Below, piece after piece: positions 6,288-22,389 of a DNA stretch of 64,000 nucleotides. The notes under the pieces are model-generated. The model ran no database searches and was not told the origin of the DNA. It saw only the letters and a program-made list of their open reading frames with translations. Source of the DNA: Halalkalicoccus tibetensis (lineage in GTDB: Archaea > Halobacteriota > Halobacteria > Halobacteriales > Halalkalicoccaceae). Positions within the stretch are counted from its first letter, which is position 1, and each line of letters starts with the position of its first letter. The position numbers were made by a program, and so were the translations under genes. Where the stretch lies: the NCBI RefSeq assembly GCF_037996645.1, contig NZ_JBBMXV010000006.1, positions 186,001 through 250,000 on the forward strand, read 5' to 3'.

Positions 6288-7022
6288 ATGCAGCTGGATT
6301 TATTCCACACCGTTGTCGATGATGGGACAGCCCGGTCGGACAAATCGCTCCTCGAAAACCGTCTCCTACTGACGCTTGGGGTAGGGGTGCTTACACTCGC
6401 CATCACCTTTGGTGCCATTGCAGCATACTTCGCGATGATCGGGGAGCAAGGAACGGATCCCCCGACCGGCCTTGTCTACGGGGCGACCGGCGTGGGTCTC
6501 CTGCTTTCTATTGGGGTGCTGTGGTGGAGGCTTGATGCCGCCGAGCGAGCAGCGGCGTTTCCACTCCGCAGACCTTGCCAAGCGGAGCTCATTTTAGCAG
6601 TCGCACTCTTTCCGGTCGGGATAGGTGCGTTCCTCCTCGGTGAGTGGGTCGCTGGACTTTTCGGCTTCGACCCCGTCGTCTTTTACACCTATGATCTAAC
6701 AGACCCCGTGACGTTATTCGGGGTCGTTTTCGGTGCGATTATCGTCGCTCCATTGGCCGAGGAATTGATCTATCGCGGCGCACTGATCGGCGTGCTGCGT
6801 GACCGTGGTTGGTCGGTACTTGCCGCTGGGGCCGGCTCCGTCGCCGTCTTCGCGGGATATCACGTCTTCGCGCTTGGTATCGCCGGCGTTTTCGCCATCT
6901 TCGCTTGGGCTGTCCTTCCGACGATTCTCCGATTCCGCTTCGATAACCTCGCTGGCGCATGGCTACTCCACCTTCTCAACAACGTCTATGCCTATGTTAT
7001 CTTGAGCTGGATTATGATGTGA
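6288..7022 (+). CDS. CPBP-family intramembrane metalloprotease
   Basis: A 244-residue polytopic protein of the CPBP/CAAX-protease (ABI) family. The three family motifs are present: EELIYRG in the third quarter, a following H in AGYHVFALG, and HLLNN in the last helix. About seven hydrophobic segments are visible. In bacteria such proteins mature prenylated proteins or confer self-immunity to bacteriocins; in haloarchaea the substrate is mostly unknown. The ATG at 6288 is preferred over the TTG at 6282. It is one of three family members within 12 kb (also 8265 and the broken copy at 17668). Confidence 0.82.
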   Translation: MQLDLFHTVVDDGTARSDKSLLENRLLLTLGVGVLTLAITFGAIAAYFAMIGEQGTDPPTGLVYGATGVGLLLSIGVLWWRLDAAERAAAFPLRRPCQAELILAVALFPVGIGAFLLGEWVAGLFGFDPVVFYTYDLTDPVTLFGVVFGAIIVAPLAEELIYRGALIGVLRDRGWSVLAAGAGSVAVFAGYHVFALGIAGVFAIFAWAVLPTILRFRFDNLAGAWLLHLLNNVYAYVILSWIMM

Positions 7023-8264: not shown

Positions 8265-8999
8265 ATGTCTACCGTTCAGCAACCGAGCGAACAACCAGGT
8301 CCAAGTTCACCAGATAGTTGGACAGGTCGTTTTCGTGCTATTATAGTTGGACTTCTCTTGGTGATTGGTGGGACGGTTTTGGGTGGTATTCTTTCTGTTC
8401 CAGCGCTTCTCCTCGGAGGAACAAGTCTCGTCGCGTTAACCGCGCTGTTTGTCCTCTCGCAAGCTGGGTACGCTATCACTGGCTGGATCTATGCGCAACG
8501 ATGGCTCAACAAAACGATACCAATTAAAATACCGACTAAGTATCAGGCTGTCTGGATTGTAGCAAGCGCAATCGGTATGCTTGCCATCCCCATCATAATC
8601 GAGATTATAAGCTCCACAACAGGGATCCAATACGGACGCGTTGATCAACAGCTGCTTACGGGGAGCCCGGAGATGGTCCTCATCTTGGTGGTTCTGTCAG
8701 TGGTTCTCATCGGGCCCGCTGAAGAGTATCTCTTTCGGGGCGTCGTTCAGGGCAGACTCTCCCAAAGCATGGGAACACCCGCTGCAATTGTTACTGCGTC
8801 CCTGCTGTTTGTTCTTCCACACGCAATCGGATACACTGGCGGAGTCGCAGCCGTCGTCTTGTTGAGTCTTGTGCCGTTTTCACTCGGTTTAGTAATGGGT
8901 GCCCTTTACGAGCGGTTTGAGAATCTGTCTTTGCCAATACTGGCTCACGGACTTTACAATGCAATACTGTTTCTCACGACCTACTTTACGGCTTTTTGA
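8265..8999 (+). CDS. CPBP-family intramembrane metalloprotease (second copy)
   Basis: A 244-residue polytopic CPBP protein. The active-site glutamates and arginine are in AEEYLFRG, the first histidine in LPHAIGY, and the last motif is AHGLYN, so all conserved metal ligands appear intact. The N-terminal ~25 residues are soluble and Pro/Ser-rich. It differs clearly from the copy at 6288 and is closer in style to the broken copy at 17668 (GPAEEYLFRGVVQ there reads GPGEELLFRGVIQ). Substrate unknown; roles in peptide immunity or membrane-protein processing are possible. Confidence 0.85.
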   Translation: MSTVQQPSEQPGPSSPDSWTGRFRAIIVGLLLVIGGTVLGGILSVPALLLGGTSLVALTALFVLSQAGYAITGWIYAQRWLNKTIPIKIPTKYQAVWIVASAIGMLAIPIIIEIISSTTGIQYGRVDQQLLTGSPEMVLILVVLSVVLIGPAEEYLFRGVVQGRLSQSMGTPAAIVTASLLFVLPHAIGYTGGVAAVVLLSLVPFSLGLVMGALYERFENLSLPILAHGLYNAILFLTTYFTAF

Positions 9000-17667: not shown

Positions 17668-18343
17668 TTATATGAGAAGTAGTAGTGTTGTCACGGCAGG
17701 GGCTTCAGTTGTAGCTACCCAATAAATGATCTCAAACTGGATTGCATTGAATAATCCATGGACTGTCGCGGGCACTACGAGGTTGCCACTATACTCATAG
17801 CTCGCGCCGAGTACGACGCTCAGAGCCAAGTAGGTAATGAGTGTTAAAATTAGTCCTTCACCAGTGAGCGAGCCGAGATGGGCAAGCGCAAAAATGAGAC
17901 TAGCAATAACAATTCCGAGAAGAATACCGAGCCGGAGTCGTAAGATCTGTTGAATGACGCCTCGAAAGAGTAATTCTTCGCCGGGTCCCACTAATAGAAG
18001 TGATTTGTGATTAAAATAGCGAATAGCATGAAGAGTCCACCGCCGATCCAACCAAGGTCCGAAATTTGGGATAGTCAAGAAGAAGAAAATCAATCCCCTC
18101 GTTGCGAGTCGAGATATAGATTAGCGCGACCGAGCCGAAACCAAGCCCTTGGAGGGTGACCGTACTGATAACAATCCGTAGACTCGGTTGGTCAAAAACG
18201 CTAAAGCCGAATAGTAAGAGAGCGTTGCTGGTAAGAAGCATAAATAATGTTCCGACTCCAAACCCAGCGAATCCAATCAGAAGGCAGACGCCTACTGCTC
18301 TTATAGTCGCTAGTGAATCAATCTCCGTTGTTTGAATACCCAT
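17668..18343 (-). pseudogene. CPBP-family intramembrane protease, broken
   Basis: From the ATG at 18343 the first frame gives about 90 residues with two hydrophobic helices and then runs out at about 18011. A second frame, overlapping it, carries the catalytic region: GPGEELLFRG, a histidine in FALAHLGSLTG and VHGLFNA, down to a stop at 17668. At least one frameshift, and probably a deletion around 18010-18100, separates them. The active-site part is preserved, so decay may be recent. Third CPBP member in this region. Confidence 0.75.
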
Positions 18344-18577
18344 TACCTGATGCTTAGATCGCTCAGGTTTTTCTCTATTGGTAGCAGATTCTGAGTCTTG
18401 TTAGTGAGCTGGGTCTATGCGTCGCCTCTATATTCGGCCCGGGATGTGGTCGTGTCGGTGGATGGGTGGCAAATACCGTTGCGTCACGGTGGCCGACCGG
18501 CGCGAACGCGTCATAGGACTCCTACAGTAGACAACAATTAAATAAGAAGAGGAATGATTTTGCTAAAAGTCTTGAAT

Positions 18578-18754
18578 ATGAACCTCAACAACAAAATCAG
18601 ATATGTGTATTACGGTGGTATTGCAATAGGGGCAGGAGTAGTAGCTATAGCTAACTCAGTTCCAGGAAATATCAATACCCTCATAGCATTTGCATTTGGT
18701 ATTCTTGTATTTATTGTGGGCAACAAATATATGATTAAAAAATATGGAAACTAA
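18578..18754 (+). CDS. A+T-rich small membrane protein beside halocin candidate
   Basis: A 58-residue protein with two membrane helices: YVYYGGIAIGAGVVAIANSV and LIAFAFGILVFIVGNKYMI, ending in KKYGN. It is basic rather than acidic and uses A+T-rich codons, unlike its neighbours, suggesting transfer. The ATG at 18578 is chosen over 18554. It converges on the halocin-like gene with 41 bases between stops. A role in producer immunity is conceivable purely from position. Confidence 0.5.
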   Translation: MNLNNKIRYVYYGGIAIGAGVVAIANSVPGNINTLIAFAFGILVFIVGNKYMIKKYGN

Positions 18755-18795
18755 GGTATTATCCTATACAATAAATTACTCATTATAACAATTTT

Positions 18796-19422
18796 CTAAC
18801 TACTCAGACGCTCCCATTCGCCTCCTGAACAACACCGTCCACGCCCTAACGATCCATTGATAGCCGCATATCCTACACAGGGAACGCACGAAGCAAGTGT
18901 GGGTGCAATAGCACATGCTGAGCAGGTGAGTCCAGCATTTTCAGCAACATCCTCAGCGCAGTCAAGATCGATACTGCCAGTGCAGTAGTATCCGTCTACT
19001 GTTGGTCTTTGTGCCGACACATCACCTTCCTCTTCTTCCACATACCCAACTAGTTCATCGTTTTCCTCATTCTTGACAAATGATCCCTCTCCTTCATTGT
19101 CCGGAACAATCGTATACTCATCAGGAAGGTCATCAGAGCTACTAGAAGCCGCTCCTGGAAAGCTGCCTGCTGCAATCAATGCTGCGATTGCTGTTCCACT
19201 ACTAGCAAGTAGTTGACGACGACTACTAGGATTATTCCGCTCCTCTCCTGCTGCTTTGGCCGTCTCTAAGCAACCACCACATGACCCCGCATCATTCACT
19301 CTCTGTAGGAGTGCATCAGCGTGTGCGTCGATGGCATTTTTTTCTTCGGACTGCTGGTGAATGTTCTGTTCAGTTTGGTCGGAATTACTGCTCTGAAGGA
19401 CATCAAGTAGTTTGTTTTTCAT
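18796..19422 (-). CDS. Halocin C8-like precursor (candidate antimicrobial peptide)
   Basis: A 208-residue precursor. A Tat-type signal lies internally (SSRRQLLASSG, R68-R69, then a hydrophobic stretch to about 91), after a 65-residue polar leader with CGGC at 48-51. An acidic linker follows, then a cysteine-rich C-terminus from about residue 138 with eight cysteines (147, 155, 167, 170, 179, 182, 197, 198), small residues and no charge clusters in the core. This is the layout of halocin C8 precursors, whose mature peptide is a C-terminal, disulfide-rich 76-residue fragment. The leader is shorter than in the C8 immunity-bearing precursor. A+T-rich promoter sequence (TTATTATTATAAGATAAAA, about 19525-19545 on the opposite strand) lies some 100 bases upstream. 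Activity is inferred, not shown. Confidence 0.68.
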   Translation of the reverse strand: MKNKLLDVLQSSNSDQTEQNIHQQSEEKNAIDAHADALLQRVNDAGSCGGCLETAKAAGEERNNPSSRRQLLASSGTAIAALIAAGSFPGAASSSSDDLPDEYTIVPDNEGEGSFVKNEENDELVGYVEEEEGDVSAQRPTVDGYYCTGSIDLDCAEDVAENAGLTCSACAIAPTLASCVPCVGYAAINGSLGRGRCCSGGEWERLSS

Positions 19423-19927
19423 TGGTTACACTCTGATTACTAAGAACGTCTAGACGCGGGGATATCGTTCATCCGTGACCGCATCAGCCACTTACACGAC
19501 CAGACGTTCCACTTGGTCATTTTATCTTATAATAATAAAAGTAATTAACTATCATATATAATACTATTCGCTATAGTAATACAACCTATCTCGAACCGTT
19601 GAATGCGTTGAGGAGAAACATTCACTCACCCATCAACGAGCGCGGACTGGCGTGTTCATTCAAATGAAATGGCGGTTAACGGGAATGGCTAAAGAACACG
19701 ACGTCGTTGAGTTGAGAAGACAGAGATCGTGCATGATCTCCATTCAGATAACACAGATTAAATCGACCATCCCAGACTTCGACCGCGCGACGACGGGCGC
19801 GAGTAAGATGAGCACGAGAGTAGAATCGTCTGCGGTTATTCGAGCGGGGGTAATCAGTGCGTAGGGCCGACTTCTCTGAGCATTTAGAGTTCGGCACAAA
19901 ATTAATAAGACTGGGAGTTATATTATT

Positions 19928-20866: not shown

Positions 20867-20963
20867 GCACGGCCGACGCGCACAACACCTCCGCTTGAAT
20901 TGGCTAGAAATCTACCGACCACACTATTTGTCTGTTGAGATTTCGTGGGTCTCCTGAGAACAG

Positions 20964-21497
20964 TCAATGATCCGGTTCACCGACAGGCGCTTCGAGTCGG
21001 TCGACCTGCAATATGAGGATCCTGTTGGTCGTATCGATACCATCGAGAGTTCCTTCGACCACAAGCTTTGAGAGTGGCGTTGGGCCAACCGTGACCGAAT
21101 CACCGTTCTGGTAATCGTCAACTGATCCTTGGACATGAACCTCCGCACGACACTGTTCGGGATGTTGAACGCTCGAGAGATCGATTTCACGGATATTGGC
21201 ATTTTCAACGGCCTCACCGTTGTGAGTCAGTGAAACCGCGGCCGGTTCCTCTAGTTGATCCACGTCCAGTACCTCAAACGCTGTCACTGTCGGCTTGTAC
21301 CCTCCTTTTGGACCAGGAACTCCCTCGACCAACTGCAGTGCTTTTAGACTCTGCATCTGATTACGGATCGTCCCTGGGTTACGGTCGATTGCTTCAGCTA
21401 TCTCATCGCCTTTCACTGGATTCTCTCTGTTACGGTGTCGGTCAACGAGTGCAGTGAGGATACTCTTCTGACTCGCTGTAAGCTCAATTGCGGACAT
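20964..21497 (-). CDS. Rrf2-like haloarchaeal transcriptional regulator
   Basis: A 177-residue protein. The N-terminal winged helix (ELTASQKSILTALVDRHRN, then VKGDEIAEAIDRNPGTIRNQ) has the form annotated in haloarchaea as Rrf2-family. The following ~100 residues form a beta-rich domain with EIDLSSVQHPEQCRAEVHVQ and VTVGPTPLSKLVVEGTLDG. No Fe-S cysteine triad of true Rrf2 sensors is visible. The ATG at 21497 is chosen, because the 36 extra residues upstream are not conserved-looking. Ligand and targets are unknown. Confidence 0.78.
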   Translation of the reverse strand: MSAIELTASQKSILTALVDRHRNRENPVKGDEIAEAIDRNPGTIRNQMQSLKALQLVEGVPGPKGGYKPTVTAFEVLDVDQLEEPAAVSLTHNGEAVENANIREIDLSSVQHPEQCRAEVHVQGSVDDYQNGDSVTVGPTPLSKLVVEGTLDGIDTTNRILILQVDRLEAPVGEPDH

Positions 21498-21621
21498 ACC
21501 TCCGTTAGAAGATGATTCGGTAATAACCTGTGCAATCACAGCATGGGCTAACGTACGTATGGCTCTGAAAGAGCTCTTACAGCACAATCGAACAACTAGA
21601 CCCAATCTATTTAGTAATAGA

Positions 21622-21984
21622 ATGACCGAAAGAGAACCGATGGCTATAGATCAATCGTCTTCTCCATCTCTTAGCGATCAACTGGCAACTCTCCAGTCTG
21701 ACGATCCACGACGATACGCTCTCCTCAAACGCTATGTCGACAAACTCGAAGAACTTCTGGAAGACGCTGACCGCAACTACGCCTCGGCAAAACAGCTCCA
21801 CTCACAGTGGGAGGACCCACCGTTTCAACCCCAGATTACTGGCCAGCTGCTCAGCACGGCCGCCACTCTCGAGATTCTACAGGTACATGCCCATCGAAGC
21901 AATCGTAATCGATGCGATCTAACGGCGTACAATCAGACACGCCTGGAACACCTTGCTACTCTTCTCAACACTAACCACGACTAA
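21622..21984 (+). CDS. Hypothetical helical protein
   Basis: A 120-residue, mostly alpha-helical protein: YALLKRYVDKLEELLEDADRN looks like a coiled-coil segment, followed by LLSTAATLEILQVHAHR. No cysteines, signal or membrane helix. It is divergent from the Rrf2-like gene and convergent with the PadR gene. The ATG at 21622 is preferred; 21640 is an alternative. No function assigned. Confidence 0.55.
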   Translation: MTEREPMAIDQSSSPSLSDQLATLQSDDPRRYALLKRYVDKLEELLEDADRNYASAKQLHSQWEDPPFQPQITGQLLSTAATLEILQVHAHRSNRNRCDLTAYNQTRLEHLATLLNTNHD

Positions 21985-22005
21985 CTAGTCGAACACAACG
22001 TTTTG

Positions 22006-22308
22006 TCAGCCAGTCTCAGACTCGGGACCCTCCAGCTCATCAAGATACTGGTCTTCCCAGTCGCGGCGCGCTTGAACTTCCCGACGTCCCCGGTCGGTGA
22101 GTTCGTACTTGTTCGTTCGCCGGTCAAGCTCACCTTTCTTCACCAATCCCTTGTCAACGAGCGTATCGAGGTTCGGATACAACCGTCCGTGATGGACCTC
22201 CGCTTCGTAATACTCCTCGAGAGCATCTTTTATCTGAAGCCCGGCCGGCTCTTCGAGCCCCCCAATAGCATAGAGCAGGTCACGTTGGAAGCCTGTCAAG
22301 TCATCCAT
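22006..22308 (-). CDS. PadR-family transcriptional regulator
   Basis: A 100-residue PadR protein. The winged helix shows FQRDLLYAIGGLEEPAGLQI, then HHGRLYPNLDTLVDKGLVKK, the signature of the family, and the wing KYELTDRGRREV. The C-terminal helix DWEDQYLDELEG is short, as in haloarchaeal PadR proteins. Typically a repressor responding to small molecules. The divergent β-helix lipoprotein gene begins about 250 bases upstream. Confidence 0.85.
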   Translation of the reverse strand: MDDLTGFQRDLLYAIGGLEEPAGLQIKDALEEYYEAEVHHGRLYPNLDTLVDKGLVKKGELDRRTNKYELTDRGRREVQARRDWEDQYLDELEGPESETG

Positions 22309-22389
22309 ACCATCTACTAATAGAGGGACGCCGTCAATATTCTGTATTATCTCACGTCGTCTGCCCGAATAAAAACGGAGAAGGAGTTA

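Follow-up and report, generated by a model that had tools for sequence, protein, structure and literature searches.

A candidate microhalocin-type peptide precursor with a halocin C8-like leader and a facing small membrane gene in Halalkalicoccus tibetensis

A 208-amino-acid (aa) protein of Halalkalicoccus tibetensis is probably the precursor of a microhalocin-type antimicrobial peptide with an adjacent immunity gene, its activity and cleavage and the immunity function being predicted from sequence comparisons. The protein combines an N-terminal leader, an internal twin-arginine signal, an acidic linker and a Cys-rich C-terminus. Leader and core are homologous to those of other haloarchaeal precursors, beside which small membrane genes recur. 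Coordinates refer to positions within the window, i.e., the whole 64,000-nt stretch that was analysed (NZ_JBBMXV010000006.1, 186,001–250,000). The features discussed are as follows, with their basis in brackets.

18796–19422, minus strand: 208-aa precursor gene (sequence; held-out matches of leader and core)
19237–19350, minus strand: N-terminal leader module, residues 25–62, with GGCxE motif (alignment; HMM scores of 36.1 and 30.3 bits)
19150–19227, minus strand: internal twin-arginine signal, residues 66–91, SSRRQLLASSGTAIAALIAAG... (sequence; RR invariant in the leader alignment)
19009–19149, minus strand: acidic linker, residues 92–138, with many D/E, replacing the ~150-residue middle region of relatives (sequence and alignments)
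19009–19020, minus strand: junction motif VSAQ, residues 135–138, candidate maturation site (enrichment of V/I-S/T-x-Q)
18799–19008, minus strand: candidate mature peptide, residues 139–208, with eight Cys (core alignment and held-out core HMM)
18578–18754, plus strand: 58-aa two-helix membrane protein, candidate immunity gene (adjacency statistics; tail to tail with the precursor)
17668–18343, minus strand: frame-broken CPBP (PF02517) gene, probably outside the system (reads in three frames)

The precursor ORF opens with ATG and its reading frame is intact. The plan described in the initial annotation, with a polar leader, RR signal, acidic linker and eight-Cys C-terminus, was borne out by the sequence. 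The RR pair (residues 68–69) is followed by a hydrophobic stretch, and the RRQLL at its start aligns with the RR of precursors of the halocin C8 family (TIGR04449). A Pfam search with the precursor gave no match, and an NCBIfam search returned only a weak Tat model (TIGR02811; E = 0.047, under the cut-off). The C-terminal Cys residues are located at positions 147, 155, 167, 170, 179, 182, 197, and 198, and the leader holds two further ones (C48 and C51). AlphaFold modelled the core poorly (pLDDT 57.6) and the Actinarchaeum precursor with low confidence (pLDDT 32.9). The earlier description of the leader as short needs correction: the N-terminal leader resembles that of the relatives, and the missing part is a middle (pro) region of ~150 residues, the relatives that possess it being 256–374 aa long. 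In its place there is a linker of 47 residues. Upstream of the precursor, a 26-codon ORF follows an A+T-rich stretch on the minus strand (19440–19520); with a leaderless start near this position, the precursor would have a short ORF ahead of it.

On first inspection of the matches in genomes of the class, four proteins (L005, L010, L011, and L013) were seen to start like the 208-aa precursor, and an alignment of eight leaders showed that GG-C-x-E and RR were kept. The motif reads SCGGCLETA in the 208-aa precursor vs. DGGGCxE[TA]W in relatives. A leader HMM built from 14 precursors, with the 208-aa precursor held out, gave it 36.1 bits, which none of 10,000 shuffles reached (best, 22.1 bits). 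Because some of these 14 had been found using the 208-aa precursor sequence, a strict HMM drew on only four TIGR04449 precursors (L141–L144) recovered by the TIGR04449 search alone; it scored the 208-aa precursor at 30.3 bits, likewise reached by none of 10,000 shuffles (best, 18.9 bits). As this score exceeds those of all shuffles, the 208-aa precursor is genuinely linked to halocin C8-like precursors through its leader and signal. Possession of the leader is not sufficient to define a halocin, since its motif also heads non-secreted proteins: VDGGGCxE[TA] begins the members of two haloarchaeal families without the Cys-rich secreted plan (L099, L103, L105, and L106; L098, L100–L102, and L104), and the GGGCxE leader may for this reason be a general recognition tag. 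At four loci (L081, L094, L095, and L140) leader and RR signal are kept and the Cys-rich tail is lost, a loss that would suit bacteriocin loci with fast turnover. Three different leader-bearing precursors (L127, L134, and L141), each accompanied by a separate small membrane gene, are present on Halorubrum trapanicum plasmid pCBA1232-01.

At the level of the peptide, no relation to halocin C8 was found. The TIGR04449 domain did not match the 208-aa precursor in hmmscan searches up to E = 1 (criterion, >24 bits), nor any protein of the H. tibetensis genome in a search that did match the control Haloferax volcanii; matches at E ≤ 0.01 occurred in 35 of 292 genomes of the class. A model of 21 TIGR04449 members scored the precursor core at −2.9 bits, a value equalled by 3135 of 5000 shuffles. 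The peptide is thus not a member of the halocin C8 family, and similarity to the halocin C8-like domain, the absence of which the initial annotation had named as refuting its proposal, is not supported. The interpretation as a new halocin is partly supported: the plan of the precursor (leader, RR, V[ST]xQ-type junction, and Cys-rich end) is that of halocin C8-like precursors, but the peptide domain is not.

The C-terminal region aligned with another group of precursors, L115 (genome G006), L116/L123 (Halopiger goleimassiliensis), L117/L122 (Actinarchaeum halophilum CP071306) and L125 (H. trapanicum pCBA1232-01, WP_143076933), in which six Cys columns are invariant. A core HMM of the four earlier relatives gave the 208-aa precursor 13.2 bits, a score equalled by none of 5000 plain shuffles but by 15 of the 5000 in which the Cys were kept in place. 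The first two-row core profile found a strong match in G006 only, and a five-row profile that included the 208-aa precursor had matches at E ≤ 0.01 in 12 of the 302 genomes of the class, six of these being the five input rows and an identical copy (G090). Among the other six genomes, L206 (G059) and L209 (G273) were judged by inspection to be true new members, as RR-bearing Cys-rich precursors; no such precursor was seen at L207 and L208, L210 yielded nothing that passed the filter, and L211 stood outside this judgement. By inspection, precursors with a homologous core are present in 7 other genomes among the 302 searched. When a core HMM of six relatives was applied with the 208-aa precursor held out, the score was 21.2 bits (best shuffle, 17.4 bits), reached by none of 5000 plain and none of 5000 Cys-fixed shuffles (profile comparison, P = 8.1e-6), a test that is not fully independent because L206 and L209 had been recruited by a profile containing the 208-aa precursor. 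On the basis of these alignments, the peptide is assigned to a Cys-rich haloarchaeal precursor set separate from TIGR04449, and with both leader and core matching relatives in held-out tests, the 208-aa precursor is judged to be more than a chance ORF.

Searches with the protein alone as query yielded no full-length homologue in the genome, viral, and plasmid collections. Full-length matches at E ≤ 0.01 in 391 class genomes were mostly low-complexity Tat/acidic proteins, and the peptide region alone returned weak noise (best E = 0.003). Profile scans of viral collections and phages detected no relative, and nothing convincing was obtained from the PHROGs, PADLOC, and PDB libraries. No description of the core set was recognised in the literature searched, which did not include Mei et al. 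2008 or Makarova et al. 2019 (mBio), the latter reportedly on archaeal antimicrobial peptides.

The candidate maturation site was evaluated in the 30 residues preceding the first core Cys. The motif V/I-S/T-x-Q was present there in 12 of 32 precursors (11 of 31 without the 208-aa one) vs. 63 of 2412 pro-region windows, corresponding to a binomial p of 1.4e-11 with the windows overlapping. Halocin C8 itself (L147) is without the motif at its junction.

The ORF facing the precursor is intact and separated from the precursor stop by 41 bp; read from an in-frame ATG at 18554, its product would have 66 aa. Its G+C content is 33.9% vs. 53.9% for the window, and an equally A+T-rich composition is seen in just 8 of 3192 sliding 177-nt windows. 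The first helix is weak, two helices being predicted at a Kyte–Doolittle (KD) threshold of ≥1.5 and not at ≥1.6. No homologue better than E = 0.28 was detected among 9 further genomes from the family, and none in the plasmid collection. Neighbours of related precursors were counted as small membrane genes when they encoded 45–140 aa with at least two helices at KD ≥ 1.5, lay within 250 bp and did not overlap in their longest start; 68 genes from related genomes and the H. tibetensis genome served as controls. A small neighbour with 2–4 helices was present at 12 of 14 leader-type precursors vs. 9 of 68 controls (p = 2.5e-7), the 14 loci being partly dependent on one another (three share a plasmid, and L116 and L117 are close), and at 9 of 17 other TIGR04449 precursors (p = 0.0011 against the same controls). 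Both leader-type misses (L118 and L121) have membrane ORFs beside the precursor that fail the rule. The count leaves out L160, L161, and L163 (of 20 loci; precursor not picked by the filter), the duplicates L126–L128, L134, and L135, and L136–L140, which are broken, leader-only or unpicked. An earlier count (12 of 14, 12 of 17, and 13 of 68 controls at KD 1.5) was replaced, having passed truncated parts of large membrane proteins (L147, L148, and L150).

The tail-to-tail arrangement recurs in the close relatives L116 and L117, with gaps of 14 and 22 bp, respectively. Two-helix partners of 58–61 aa occur at L119, L141, L142, L144, L145, and L162, and L206 and L209, which joined the core set later, each have a small membrane gene beside them as well. 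By eye, the partners of L116 and L117 resemble each other, and most others do not. Because the facing ORF has no relative in the family genomes and plasmids searched and most partners are dissimilar, its candidate role in immunity is deduced from position, for which the support is good; the earlier suggestion that this A+T-rich gene might confer immunity gains backing from the recurrent adjacency.

Other neighbours vary among loci. Among 31 related precursors, 13 have a match to a FilR1/HVO_A0261-type regulator profile no more than 1 kb away; the profile found no regulator beside the 208-aa precursor, the sole match in the window being weak and ~4.6 kb away. The regulator is divergent at some related loci, and an ABC transporter is present in the locus of Archaeon DL31, a gene content like that of dedicated export/immunity clusters. 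The H. tibetensis genome encodes two subtilase-family proteases, which could mature the peptide. Within the window, a cellulase-like gene (PF12876, 15168–16267) is split over two frames, and a module at 20960–22310 comprising an HrcA-like HTH gene and a PadR-like gene is repeated in the genome, e.g., at G000:C6:76136-77486 with 82% identity, with partial copies elsewhere.

The following course of events is proposed. The cytosolic leader with its GGCxE module precedes the twin-arginine signal, and the folded precursor would be exported by Tat. An extracellular protease would then cut at or near VSAQ, releasing the C-terminal peptide of ~70 residues, likely stabilised by disulfides among its eight Cys. 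The peptide may act on competing haloarchaea, probably at the membrane, and the tail-to-tail 58-aa two-helix membrane protein would protect the producer, a role proposed because the precursor is without the middle region that gives immunity in halocin C8.

Immunity could also be sought elsewhere. In lactic acid bacteria, immunity to bacteriocins is known to be conferred by CPBP proteins, and the initial annotation had named those nearby as a possible source. There are indeed three CPBP genes in the window (matches at 6711–6986, 8673–8966, and 17740–18000), and six of the ten matches in the genome are on this contig. However, the closest gene is broken, being spread over three successive frames with at least two frame breaks, no similar protein was found at the loci of the 31 related precursors, and the intact CPBP genes are about 10 kb from the precursor. 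This makes the nearest CPBP gene a poorer candidate than the facing ORF, and immunity from a CPBP protein the least probable of the readings considered. The facing ORF might instead be no gene, or have no part in immunity, with the precursor self-sufficient through its leader or linker. The lack of a homologue and the weak first helix would fit this, as would halocin C8, whose immunity comes from its own precursor according to the available part of PMC11509114. This reading is somewhat unlikely, given that small-membrane-gene adjacency is far above control, that the tail-to-tail layout is found in two close relatives, and that the middle region is absent from the 208-aa precursor.

The peptide itself might be inactive or serve another purpose. 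The locus could be a relic, in which a short, decayed precursor lost its middle region and yields no active peptide: it lies among broken genes (CPBP and cellulase-like), broken, leader-only copies occur in other genomes, and the relatives are longer. Yet both the precursor frame and the facing ORF are intact, and the Cys pattern, RR, leader, and VSAQ are kept, making decay quite unlikely. It is decidedly unlikely, too, that the product is a secreted Cys-rich signalling or structural peptide, such as a pheromone or cell-surface factor, built on the same plan without killing. The occurrence of the leader motif on non-secreted proteins implies that the plan is not confined to halocins, and several loci carry regulators, but the sole plan-sharing precursor type of known function is antimicrobial (halocin C8, in the accessible portion of PMC11509114), and the small membrane partners, like the ABC transporter, are in keeping with immunity.

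The locus possibly represents a second halocin architecture, a view that we hold tentatively: a C8-type leader, signal, and junction would be joined to a different disulfide peptide, with immunity outsourced to an adjacent, fast-evolving protein of 2–4 helices. This would be a toxin–immunity pair, unlike the one-gene halocin C8 system, and the GGGCxE leader would then be a recognition tag common to several peptide families. The genes of only a few halocins have been identified, and in the literature searched halocin C8 is the one with a described immunity. With a recognisable leader, junction, and adjacent small membrane gene as markers, halocin-type loci could be recovered even where their peptides are dissimilar, and immunity to archaeal bacteriocins could be tested one gene at a time.

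Among known loci, the set of L115, L116, L117, L125, L206, and L209 shares with the 208-aa precursor the core pattern C-x(5-7)-C-x(11-14)-CxxC-x(8-15)-CxxC followed by further Cys, and the adjacent small membrane gene. The leader is present in four of the six, L206 and L209 being without it; these relatives differ in being longer, with a middle region, and their partners are mostly dissimilar in sequence. On plasmid phalar01 of Archaeon DL31 (Halar_0084-0088; L126), the same leader, RR signal, and Cys-rich tail are accompanied by a 58-aa two-helix gene 37 bp away, comparable to the facing ORF, although the genes there are co-directional, include an ABC transporter and a divergent regulator, and encode a different tail. 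Halocin C8 is described, in the part of PMC11509114 available, as a 76-aa antimicrobial peptide exported by Tat whose precursor bears its own immunity, and the protease that matures it is stated to be unidentified in the available part of PMC12893001. With the ProC8/TIGR04449 family, the 208-aa precursor shares the Tat-type internal signal and the C-terminal Cys-rich peptide, and with some of its members also the GGGCxE leader, the VSxQ-type junction, and the small membrane neighbour. It lacks the ~150-residue immunity/pro region, has eight core Cys where the family usually has ten, and its peptide differs from halocin C8 in having no TIGR04449 match. The HFX_0892/HlyR4 system, in which an extracellular serine protease activates a secreted precursor (available part of PMC12893001), is a model here for maturation only: the active part of HFX_0892 is N-terminal and helical, whereas the peptide of the 208-aa precursor is C-terminal and Cys-rich.
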